From Thioalkalivibrio sp. ALJ3 (GTDB lineage: Bacteria; Pseudomonadota; Gammaproteobacteria; Ectothiorhodospirales; Ectothiorhodospiraceae): a DNA stretch of 64,000 nt. This document shows, piece after piece, positions 23,108 through 49,695 of this stretch (the stretch's first letter is position 1; each line of letters starts with the position of its first letter). The translations under genes were made by a program, and so were the position numbers. The notes under the pieces are model-generated. The model was not told the DNA's origin and did no database searches. It was given only the letters and a program-made list of their open reading frames with translations. Location: positions 678,586-742,585 of the forward strand of contig NZ_KB897905.1 in the NCBI RefSeq assembly GCF_000377205.1. The letters run 5' to 3'.

Positions 23108-23185
23108 TCACGTGTCGATGCGGCGCGTCTGCCCCTGAAACCCTTCTCGCTCGGCGCCTGCCGGGTTCTTCAACTGGATTCCTCT

Positions 23186-23455
23186 AGGGAAACACTGATT
23201 CATGTACACACTCGCGTTGGCACCCCAGGTTTTCCGAGACAAGGCGCGTCGGGCAGCGGGTAGTGGCTCTACCCGCAAGCGGCGCAACGCAGGATCGGGG
23301 AACCTGGGGTACCAACCCCAAGGGGCTCGGCCGCTTTTGCGCGGGAACGGCGTTGCGGCTCCCTTGTGCAGAATGACTGCACGGCAGTCGCCGCGCCTTG
23401 TTCGCACGCAAAAGCGACTCGAGCGCGAGCGTGTATCATGAATCAGTGTTTCCCT
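23186..23455 (+). repeat. Nested-palindrome repeat, full copy 2 (short form, 270 bp)
   Basis: Terminal arms agggaaacactgattcatg and their complement (one extra base in the right arm). Inner arms ggcaccccaggtt (23219-23231) and aacctggggtacc (23301-23313), central hairpin cgggtag-tggct-ctacccg, and the near-invariant right block from gggaacggcgttgcgg to gcgacctcgag-type sequence. Lacks the three 15-bp segments of copy 1. Ends 8 bp before the uup ATG, so it contains the region where a ribosome site would be expected. Confidence 0.9.
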
Positions 23456-31120: not shown

Positions 31121-32689
31121 ATGAATCGCCTGTTCCGCTCCACCGCCGTTGTCAGTGGCATGACCATGATCTCGCGGATCATGGGCTATCTGCGCGACAT
31201 GGTGCTGGCGGTCACCTTTGGCGCCGGGGCCGCCACAGACGCCTTCTTCGTCGCCTTCCGCATCCCCAATTTCCTGCGCCGACTGTTCGCCGAGGGCGCG
31301 TTCAACCAGGCCTTCGTGCCGGTGTTTGCGGAGTTTCGCGAGAAGCGCGGGCGCGAGGCCCTGCGCGACCTGCTGGATCACACCGCCGGCACGCTGATGG
31401 CCGTGGTCGCGGTGGTCACGCTGATCGGGATCCTGGCCGCGCCGCTGCTGATCTGGGTGTTCGCCCCGGGGCTCGCCACGCAGGAGGAGGGGCGGCAGGA
31501 CCTTGCGGCGCAGATGCTGCGCATCACCTTCCCGTATCTGCTGTTCATCTCGCTGACCGCGATGGCTGCGGGGATCTTGAACAGCATCGGGCGCTTTGCC
31601 GTCCCCGCCTTTACCCCGGTGTTCCTGAACCTGGCATTGATCGTCGCGGCGCTGTGGCTGGCGCCGATGTTCGCGGAGCCGATCGTGGCGCTGGCCTGGG
31701 GGGTGTTCGCCGCCGGTGCCTTGCAGCTCGCCTTCCAGATCCCGTTCCTGTTGCGCGCGGGGCTGTTGCCGCGGCCGCGTTTCCGCCGTGCACACGAGGG
31801 GGTGCGGCGCATCGTCAAGCTGATGCTGCCGGCCATCCTCGGGACCTCGGTCGTGCAGATCAACCTGCTGGTGGACACCCTGGTGGCTTCGTTCCTGGTC
31901 GCCGGGTCGATCTCCTGGCTGTATTTCGGCGACCGCTTCGTGGAGTTGCCGCTCGCGCTGTTCGGCATCGCGATCGGTACCGTGATCCTTCCGCGGCTGG
32001 CGCGGCAGTACAATCAGGCGGACCCGGCCGCTTACGGGCGCACGCTGGACTGGGCCCTTCGCCTGGCGATGCTGGTGGCCCTGCCCTCGATGGTCGGCTT
32101 GGTCGTACTCGCGGTCCCCATCCTGGCCACGTTGATCCAGTACCAGGCCTTTACCCAGTGGGACACCTACATGGCCGCGATGGCGCTGGCCGCGTATGCA
32201 CTGGGTCTGCCGGGCTTCATCCTGATCAAGGTGCTCGCCCCGGGGTTCTTCGCCCGCCAGGACACCAAGACCCCCGTGAAGATCGCGATCATCGCGATGC
32301 TCGCCAATATCGTGCTGAACGCCGCGTTCGTGCTGCCCTGGTACCTGTCCGGTATCCCGGGCGCGCATGCCGGGTTGGCGCTGGCCACCTCGGCCTCCGC
32401 CTACATCAACGCGGGTCTGCTCTATCGCGGGCTGGTTCGAGAGGGGATCTATCAGCCGGGGGCCGCGCTGAAACGCCTGCGCGTGGGGTTGCCGATCGCG
32501 CTCGGGGTGATGGCCCTGGTACTGGCCGCGCTGTCGCCGTCGTTCGGGCAGTGGACCGACTGGACGGTCAGCACGCGTCTGCTCGCGCTGACCGGTCTGA
32601 TCACGGCCGGGGCTGGCGCGCTGCTCCTGACGCTGCTCGCCGCAGGGCTTCGCCCCCGACACTTCCTGTTACGGGAGGCCAGCGAATGA
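31121..32689 (+). CDS. murJ: Lipid II flippase MurJ
   Basis: MOP-superfamily flippase moving lipid II across the inner membrane for peptidoglycan synthesis. 522 aa from MNRLFRSTAVVSGMTMISRI, with about 14 hydrophobic helices. Family marks: SRIMGYLRDMVLA, GAATDAFFVAFRIPNFLRRL, AEGAFNQAFVPVF, LARQYNQADP region, and KVLAPGFFARQDTKTPVKIA. The frame is open upstream to 30977, but the ATG at 31121 fits the family. Next downstream is repeat copy 3, then ribF. Confidence 0.95.
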   Translation: MNRLFRSTAVVSGMTMISRIMGYLRDMVLAVTFGAGAATDAFFVAFRIPNFLRRLFAEGAFNQAFVPVFAEFREKRGREALRDLLDHTAGTLMAVVAVVTLIGILAAPLLIWVFAPGLATQEEGRQDLAAQMLRITFPYLLFISLTAMAAGILNSIGRFAVPAFTPVFLNLALIVAALWLAPMFAEPIVALAWGVFAAGALQLAFQIPFLLRAGLLPRPRFRRAHEGVRRIVKLMLPAILGTSVVQINLLVDTLVASFLVAGSISWLYFGDRFVELPLALFGIAIGTVILPRLARQYNQADPAAYGRTLDWALRLAMLVALPSMVGLVVLAVPILATLIQYQAFTQWDTYMAAMALAAYALGLPGFILIKVLAPGFFARQDTKTPVKIAIIAMLANIVLNAAFVLPWYLSGIPGAHAGLALATSASAYINAGLLYRGLVREGIYQPGAALKRLRVGLPIALGVMALVLAALSPSFGQWTDWTVSTRLLALTGLITAGAGALLLTLLAAGLRPRHFLLREASE

Positions 32690-32702
32690 TGCCGGGGCGC
32701 TT

Positions 32703-32987
32703 AGGGAAACAATGGTTAAGGTACACGCTCGCGTTGGTACCCCAGGTTCCCCGATCCTGCGTTGCGGCACTTGCCGGTAGAACCACTACCGGCTGCGCCC
32801 CGCGCCTGGTCTCGGAAAACCTGGGGTGCCAACCCCGAAGGGGCTCGGCCTCCCGTTGTTATCAATAACGGGCGTGCGCACAGCGTTGCGGCTCCCTTGT
32901 GCAGAATGACTGCACGGCAGTCACCGCGCCTTGTTCGCACGCAATAGCGACTCGAGCGCGAGTGTGTACCTTAATCATTGTTTCCCT
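32703..32987 (+). repeat. Nested-palindrome repeat, full copy 3 (inner module inverted)
   Basis: Terminal arms agggaaacaatggttaaggt and complement (one mismatch). Inner arms ggtaccccaggtt (32736-32748) and aacctggggtgcc (32818-32830) are present, but the 95-bp segment they bound is the reverse complement of that in copies 1, 2 and 4: ccccgatcctgcgttgcg is on the left and ggtctcggaaaacc on the right. The right half keeps the normal orientation, including a cccgtt/aacggg hairpin shared with copy 1 and the invariant gtgcagaatgactgcac block. Ends 38 bp before the ribF ATG. Confidence 0.9.
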
Positions 32988-33025
32988 GACGGGTTATACT
33001 CGCGATTTTGCGCAGGATCGGGGCG

Positions 33026-33988
33026 ATGCGGCTGATTCGCGGCCTGGGGCCGTCCGACAGCAGGGCTTCCACGGCAGCGGCCGTGCATGGCGCGGTGGTG
33101 ACCATTGGCAACTTTGATGGTTTCCATCGTGGCCATCAGGCTGTTCTGGGGCGCCTGCTCGAGGCGGCGCAGGATCGCCAGGCGCCGTCGGTCCTGATGA
33201 CCTTCGAGCCGCTGCCGCGCGAGTACTTCGGCAGCCGGCCCGAGGCCCCGGACCCGCCCGGGCGCCTGCAGCGCCTGCGCGACCGCCTGATCACGCTGGG
33301 GGATACCGCGCTCGAGGCCGTCTGGATCCTGCGCTTCGATGCGCAGCTGGCCGGGCTGTCGGCGACCGCCTTCATCGAGGAGGTGTTGCACCAGCGCCTC
33401 GGCGCGCAGCATGTACTGGTCGGGGACGACTTTCGCTTTGGCCGTGGCCGCGAGGGCGACCAGGCCTTCATGCGCCGCGAGGGCGAGCGCCTTGGCTTCA
33501 GTGTCGAGGGTACCCCGACGGTCGCGGATGCCGAGGGCCGGATCAGTAGCACCCGAGTACGCGCGGCGGCGCTGGACGGCGACTTCACGCGCATGGCCGA
33601 GTTGCTGGGCCGGTCCTACCGACTGCACGGGCGGGTCGCGCACGGCGACAAGCGCGGCCGTACGATCGGCTTCCCCACCGCGAACCTGCGCATGGGGCCC
33701 TGGCCGCTGGCGCTGCGCGGGGTCTATTCCGGCTGGCTGCGCCGCGCCTCGGGCGAGGCCCTGCCGGCAGTCGCCAATATCGGCTGGCGGCCGACGGTGG
33801 CGGGTACCGAGCAGCGCCTGGAGGCGCATGTGCTCGAAGGCAGCCCCGACCTCTACGGCGAGGCCGTGTGCTTCGAGCCGATCGCGCAGGTGCGCGGCGA
33901 GCAGCGCTTCGACGGGTTGGACGCCCTGCGCGCGCAGATCGCGCGCGACGTCGAGACGGCCCGCCAGCAAATTGCAGAATTCAGCTGA
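33026..33988 (+). CDS. ribF: Bifunctional riboflavin kinase / FAD synthetase
   Basis: Makes FMN then FAD. 320 aa. N-terminal adenylyltransferase domain with [13 protein letters not shown] (HxGH-type site) and [15 protein letters not shown]-terminal riboflavin-kinase barrel with [16 protein letters not shown] and the catalytic-Glu region [13 protein letters not shown] at 33026 preferred to the in-frame ATG at 33008. First gene of ribF-ileS-lspA-fkpB-ispH, a standard gammaproteobacterial order. Confidence 0.95.
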
Positions 33989-49428: not shown

Positions 49429-49695
49429 TTAAGGAAACACTAATCAATGTACACACTCGCGTTGGTACCCCAGGTTTTCGGAGGCAAGGCGCGTCGTGCA
49501 GCGGGTAGTGGTTCTACCCACAAGCGGCGCAACGCAGGATCGGGGAACCTGGGGTACCAACCCCAAGGGGCTCGGCCGCTTTTGCGTGGGAACGGCGTTG
49601 CGGCTCCCTTGTGCAGAATGACTGCACGGCAGTCGCCGCGCCTTGTTCGCACGCAAAAGCGACTCGAGCGCGTACATTGATTAGTGTTTCCTTAA
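49429..49695 (+). repeat. Nested-palindrome repeat, full copy 4 (short form, 267 bp)
   Basis: Terminal arms ttaaggaaacactaatcaat and a perfect complement ending gtttccttaa. Inner arms ggtaccccaggtt (49464-49476) and aacctggggtacc (49546-49558) in the same inner orientation as copies 1 and 2. Lacks the 15-bp segments of copy 1 and six bases of the right subterminal region. Ends 11 bp before the wecB ATG. The rest of the tviB-wecB gap (49207-49428) shows no gene or clear promoter. Confidence 0.9.

Follow-up and report, generated by a model that had tools for sequence, protein, structure and literature searches.

Copy 3 of a short dispersed repeat, situated between murJ and ribF in the 64-kb stretch of Thioalkalivibrio DNA analysed here (the window), carries the 69-bp interior of its inner hairpin in reverse, and comparison with the same insertion in four related species supports an inversion in place by exchange between the inner arms that bound it. 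The flip adds a case to a known class of events, here in a MITE family for which a search of the open-paper literature found no description. The ends of the four copies in the window were set by eye, and the features are as follows, in window coordinates:

745–1059 (about), plus strand: MITE copy 1, normal orientation
23185–23455 (about), plus strand: MITE copy 2, normal orientation
31121–32689, plus strand: murJ (lipid II flippase), upstream neighbour (PF03023, E = 3.6e-130)
32702–32987 (about): MITE copy 3, between murJ and ribF, flipped interior
32702–32732, plus strand: left terminal inverted repeat (TAGGGAAACAATGG...), about 17 bp in common with the ends of IS5-family elements of the genus
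32733–32748, plus strand: left inner arm GTTGGTACCCCAGGTT, exchange mapped to 32739–32748 by ortholog comparison
32749–32817, minus strand: 69-bp hairpin interior, in reverse compared with 113 normal rows and the four orthologs at this locus
32773–32793, no strand assigned: nested small hairpin GCCGGTAGAACCACTACCGGC in the interior
32818–32833, plus strand: right inner arm AACCTGGGGTGCCAAC, exchange mapped to 32818–32827
32834–32957, plus strand: spacer, then the right half (imperfectly palindromic; diverged inverted duplicate of the inner module)
32958–32987, plus strand: right terminal inverted repeat
33026–33988, plus strand: ribF (FAD synthetase / riboflavin kinase), downstream neighbour (PF06574, PF01687)
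49430–49692 (about), plus strand: MITE copy 4, normal orientation

The reversal itself is confirmed. When reverse-complemented, the copy 3 interior scores 41, 51, and 47 against copies 1, 2, and 4, respectively, whereas as read it scores -11, 0.5, and -5.5; the best of 2000 shuffles reached 2.5 against copy 2. The comparison was extended to a set of copies (rows) with inner-module and right-half matches over 70 nt within 110 bp, which yielded 119 rows and, after L138_2330 failed the arm pattern, 118 (115 distinct). The decayed copy L124 and shortened copies such as L117, L121, L122, L111, L139, and L146 were left out of this set. The copy 3 interior fits better in reverse complement against all 113 normal rows (110 distinct), and orientation relative to the right half is two-valued across the 118 rows, with five scoring between -50.5 and -60 and the others +37 or more. 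The preliminary description of this DNA had reported the inner module of copy 3 as inverted relative to copies 1, 2, and 4, and the interior indeed aligns with them solely when reverse-complemented. Its dimensions of 13 bp for the inner arms and 95 bp for the module are revised here: the arms span 16 bp with one T/C difference, the module that they bound is 101 bp, and the reversed interior is 69 bp.

The element is short (about 260–320 bp), dispersed (four copies in the 64-kb window), present in many copies, with dozens in the genomes of some soda-lake sulfur bacteria, and bounded by terminal inverted repeats of about 31 bp (TAGGGAAAC...), as expected of a MITE. Inside these repeats, a hairpin module with 16-bp inverted arms is followed by a spacer, which varies in length, and by a right half. 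The right half forms an imperfect palindrome and is also related to the inner module as its diverged inverted duplicate. Loops of the hairpin module are mainly of two classes, 69 nt (84 of 118 rows) and 84 nt (29 of 118 rows). The window genome (G000; 2.63 Mb in 12 contigs) contains 66 inner-module and 59 right-half matches, and several of its contigs end inside element copies (C2:12, C3:17, C7:71, C8:55, C9:31, and the end of C1), so that the element limits the assembly. A junction-pattern search recovered the element in 16 of 30 genomes of the genus, and the 28 genomes searched outside the genus gave no match. The Rfam search of 32600–33100 gave no match; GTAG REP repeats have been reported in two Thioalkalivibrio strains (PMC3733652). 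Mismatches at arm position 6 are of the T-left/C-type-right kind in 23 of the 118 rows and of the reverse kind in seven, the former corresponding to a G-T wobble on the top strand. Three further copies (L117, L121, and L146) have terminal repeats and an inner hairpin, and their inner orientation is undefinable because the right half is not recognised.

Transposase genes with PF05598 occur in 10 of the 30 genus genomes, and at five of 19 such loci (L172, L179, L182, L168, and L180; in G029, G022, and G010) the ends on both sides of the gene match those of the MITE, with about 17 bp in common (GGGAAACRCTGATCAATG). The L172 transposase belongs to the IS5 family (NF033581, E = 2.2e-95), and the L172 and L168 transposases carry its Pfam domains. 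Judged by these ends, the repeat is an IS5-related and presumably non-autonomous MITE of Thioalkalivibrio. The window genome itself has no PF05598 match, so no such mover was found there. Like IS5-related bacterial MITEs (for MITEs as a class, PMC10969869), the element is short and dispersed and has terminal inverted repeats in common with an IS5-family element; it differs in its two hairpin modules, which are diverged inverted duplicates of each other. Identical, CTAG-rich 4-mers flank the element on both sides in 35 of 110 rows, compared with an expectation of 21.6 from shuffles (at most 30 in 1000 of them), and are no more than suggestive of a target-site duplication. In G029, a MITE copy directly adjoins an IS5-family element (L172, 449–1965).

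The murJ–ribF locus was also compared with that of relatives. A MurJ scan of the genome contigs gave 19 loci, 13 of them from Thioalkalivibrio, and by MurJ the window falls in this genus. Four of the 13 carry the same insertion, at the identical point between the two genes and always in normal orientation: L149 (T. thiocyanoxidans ARh2), L150 (ALJ21), L151 (ALJT), and L152 (ALJ16). At the other nine fetched Thioalkalivibrio loci, no part of the element was matched between the two genes. Turned back, the copy 3 interior closely matches the orthologs, save for a 15-bp longer loop in ARh2 and ALJ21; these two are the nearest relatives by MurJ, and their longer loop is absent from copy 3. In the trimmed tree, the outer part of copy 3 groups with the orthologs from its own locus. 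Orientation differs between orthologous loci with unchanged flanks, as in minute inversions, and since the orthologous insertion is normal in four species, copy 3 appears to have been inverted in place. The MITE would then, on the best explanation, have inserted between murJ and ribF in an ancestor common to several Thioalkalivibrio species. The preliminary description had proposed such a comparison and held that an orientation fixed at every locus in all strains, with no reads in the alternative state, would make the flip an old, inactive event; instead, four species are normal and copy 3 is flipped. Long matches had also suggested L079–L082 as flipped copies, and these turned out to be normal; L079, L080, L081, and L083 are the murJ–ribF locus in four genomes.

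The single difference between the arms of copy 3, a T on the left and a C-type base on the right, helps to locate the exchange. The same T-left/C-type-right arms are found in ARh2, ALJ21, and ALJ16, and ALJT has C on both. An exchange of whole arms would have swapped T and C, yet the difference stayed, so the exchange lies between this position and the interior, that is, within ACCCCAGGTT (10 bp), the inner part of the arms. It had been argued earlier that the arms themselves show a physical swap. This argument falls, as three of the four normal orthologs have the same left T and all four the same right C-type base, and it is the unswapped difference that supports the inversion for which the argument was made.

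Alternatively, another MITE copy may have donated its inner module to copy 3 by gene conversion, mispaired through the near-palindromic arms, a single step that would have both replaced and inverted the module. The modules nearest to that of copy 3 are indeed at other loci (L064 in G000 and L099 in G001, with 2/69 differences each), and several more stand at 3/69, the own-locus module of ALJ16 among them, so the own locus is no closer. Furthermore, outer and inner distances correlate weakly (r = 0.18, a value lowered by some flank in the outer set), the nearest row by outer part is in the other loop-length class for 28 of 118 rows, and at the murJ–ribF locus the loop differs by 15 bp between species (69/84 nt, with L149 and L150 set against L151, L152, and the window). 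Such a loop-class difference between related species at one locus suggests exchange between copies, and the nearest modules elsewhere together with the longer loop in the closest relatives leave room for it at copy 3. However, none of the modules in the 118 rows is identical to that of copy 3, which has one base in common with the ARh2 ortholog against ALJ21, ALJ16, and ALJT, and a donor is needed for conversion and none for inversion in place. We regard gene conversion as a rival reading, though an unlikely one.

Flipped copies are rare across the genus. The left-junction flip pattern was found at 29 places in the 30 genus genomes, of which five proved on reading to be intact flipped copies, while the others were shortened, had decayed, or were normal with a variant arm; an independent right-junction pattern returned exactly the same five. 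They are distributed over four genomes (two in G000 and one each in G002, G020, and G029). A sixth flipped copy, L124 in G029, is decayed, and L145 matched the junction pattern and has no recognisable module. The normal left-junction pattern has 573 matches in 16 genomes, a figure that allows up to two mismatches and includes a few places that are not normal copies. Of the 60 full copies in the window genome, the flipped ones are two, namely copy 3 and C8:46181-46465. These values (two of 60, and five beside 573) come closer to frequencies than the five of 118 rows, a set that L087 and L096 entered as best search matches and L140 via the flip pattern. Counting against hairpin inversion, although their arms are shorter, the small nested loops were inverted in none of 112 recognised inner loops and none of 112 right-half loops.

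The flipped copies do not form one lineage, as far as their outer parts indicate. Both arm subfamilies are represented among them (L116 versus the rest), the outer-part tree needs five orientation changes, and a topology with all flipped copies in one clade is rejected (p-AU 1.3e-7 after trimming of the flanks, 1.5e-4 with genomic flank still in the columns), although exchange between copies could distort or weaken this tree. The orientation is thus recurrent and homoplasious, as in minute inversions. The closest whole-length match of copy 3 in G000 is the other flipped copy (91–92%), as would be expected if one old inversion had been spread by transposition with copy 3 as a member of the resulting subfamily. 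For copy 3, this origin is scarcely credible and is rejected on the unflipped state of the same insertion in four species and on the tree, while for a single other copy, e.g. C8:46181-46465, it could still hold.

Inversion in place is the reading for copy 3; for the other four flipped copies it is at most a possibility. The L127 point (contig C8 of G000) is empty in L188 (G020) and L190 (G029), and G022 has a normal copy (L222) about 9 bp away, probably a separate insertion. The L116 point is empty in G008. The flanks of L136 lie close together in G025, G001, and G029 by match spacing, among the matches listed. In G000, the same insertion was sought at these flanks and rejected, as they enclose a copy of another subfamily in opposite orientation plus about 1.3 kb instead; one intergenic stretch carries elements of different subfamilies, in opposite orientation, in two species (L031/L224 at G000 C2:197397-197654 and L136 at G020 C55:3173). 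At the L140 point (G029), G026 has a copy (L223) inserted at the identical point, with the same overall orientation but a normal interior (29 vs. 2), so L140 may represent a second inversion in place. The two copies may instead be separate insertions into one target: their outer parts are only 78% alike (rank 117 of 118 rows), and the point is empty in other species (L187 and L189). Insertion may have been repeated into preferred targets at both the L223/L140 and the L222/L127 points.

Because element copies lie at several contig ends of the window genome, a module joined backwards through the palindromic arms during assembly was also considered. We judge such an artefact highly improbable: copy 3 is internal to an 883-kb contig, the 16-bp arms and the 101-bp hairpin fit within ordinary read length, no other module in the set has the same sequence as that of copy 3, and there are four more intact flipped copies, three of them in three other genomes.

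The preliminary description had offered two readings of the layout, an invertible segment and an inversion by recombination between the arms. The latter is supported by four normal orthologs and an exchange that maps inside the arms. In the former, a site-specific recombinase would flip the module between the arms and both states would coexist in the population; as in invertons and phase-variable inversions (PMC11892184), a segment between inverted repeats is seen both ways, and the arms are of uniform sequence. Unlike those systems, the flipped state is rare, 12 of the neighbouring proteins at 25.5–42 kb of the window were tested and none showed a recombinase domain, and no promoter-like site (sigma-70 consensus only) was found in 32500–33100. 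We consider a programmed inverton very unlikely. One terminator-like site (32840–32852) is present within 32500–33100, compared with 0.5 in shuffles.

We favour, with moderate confidence, an inversion of the hairpin loop that is rare but recurs in the family and arises through strand switching in replication or a comparable exchange independent of RecA, with no dedicated recombinase and no regulatory role. The arms and interior form a strong predicted hairpin (-67.7 kcal/mol for the inner part, RNA parameters). On this model, the left half of the inserted MITE, a hairpin with 16-bp inverted arms around 69 bp, would extrude during replication, and the nascent strand would switch to the other template strand and then back; an equivalent RecA-independent exchange between the arms could replace this step. 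The interior would thereby have been turned in place in the G000 lineage by an exchange in the 10 bp of the arms nearest to the loop, a process expected to run at a low rate, to need no dedicated recombinase, and to serve no regulatory role. Copy 3 is apparently a rare recurring accident in a repeat family rather than a working genetic switch.

One parallel is provided by the hairpin-associated minute inversions of plastid DNA (PMC2903610, which cites Kelchner and Wendel 1996). In plastid examples such as trnH-psbA, loops of 25–27 bp between arms of at least 18 bp are described as inverting repeatedly (PMC2903610). The MITE likewise has a non-coding loop between inverted arms that turns repeatedly, although its loop is longer (69 bp, with 16-bp arms), it resides in a bacterial chromosome, and it is dispersed, so that hundreds of copies can be compared; the plastid inversions are described in the same source as frequent, whereas MITE flips are rare per copy. 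A second parallel is provided by loop inversions of which at least some were inferred to result from an interstrand template switch, with two bacterial rRNA examples (PMC8794818). There, too, the loop is inverted in place and the stems are kept, but the loops reported are typically of 4 nt, some of 7–8 nt, compared with 69 nt in the MITE.

A flip also changes the relation between the two halves of the element. Read in reverse complement, the inner module shows a relationship with the right half, beating 100 shuffles in 82 of 105 rows (13 of the 118 rows, without the motif used, were dropped), whereas its forward reading in normal copies beats them in none of 105. The two duplicates are therefore inverted in normal copies and direct in flipped copies. 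Four shortened copies (L057, L111, L139, and L122; a lower bound, as they were noticed in passing) start in the way that flipped copies do and continue as the right half, with the junction in a shared GCGTTGCGG or CCGCGCCTTGT. From this structure, we infer that they arose by a flip followed by deletion and would represent collapsed flipped parents. More tentatively, and with some doubt, the family may have a built-in life cycle of flip and collapse, in which a flip would create direct repeats that collapse to shorter forms. If so, hairpin inversion would be a route by which MITEs reach new, shorter variants. The hundreds of similar hairpins in 16 genomes constitute a natural replicate experiment on hairpin-loop inversion in bacteria, which could yield an estimate of the inversion rate and of how it varies with arm length. 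Finally, copy 3 is a warning that a reversed segment between inverted arms is not necessarily a phase-variation switch, and that the test is comparison of the orthologous locus.
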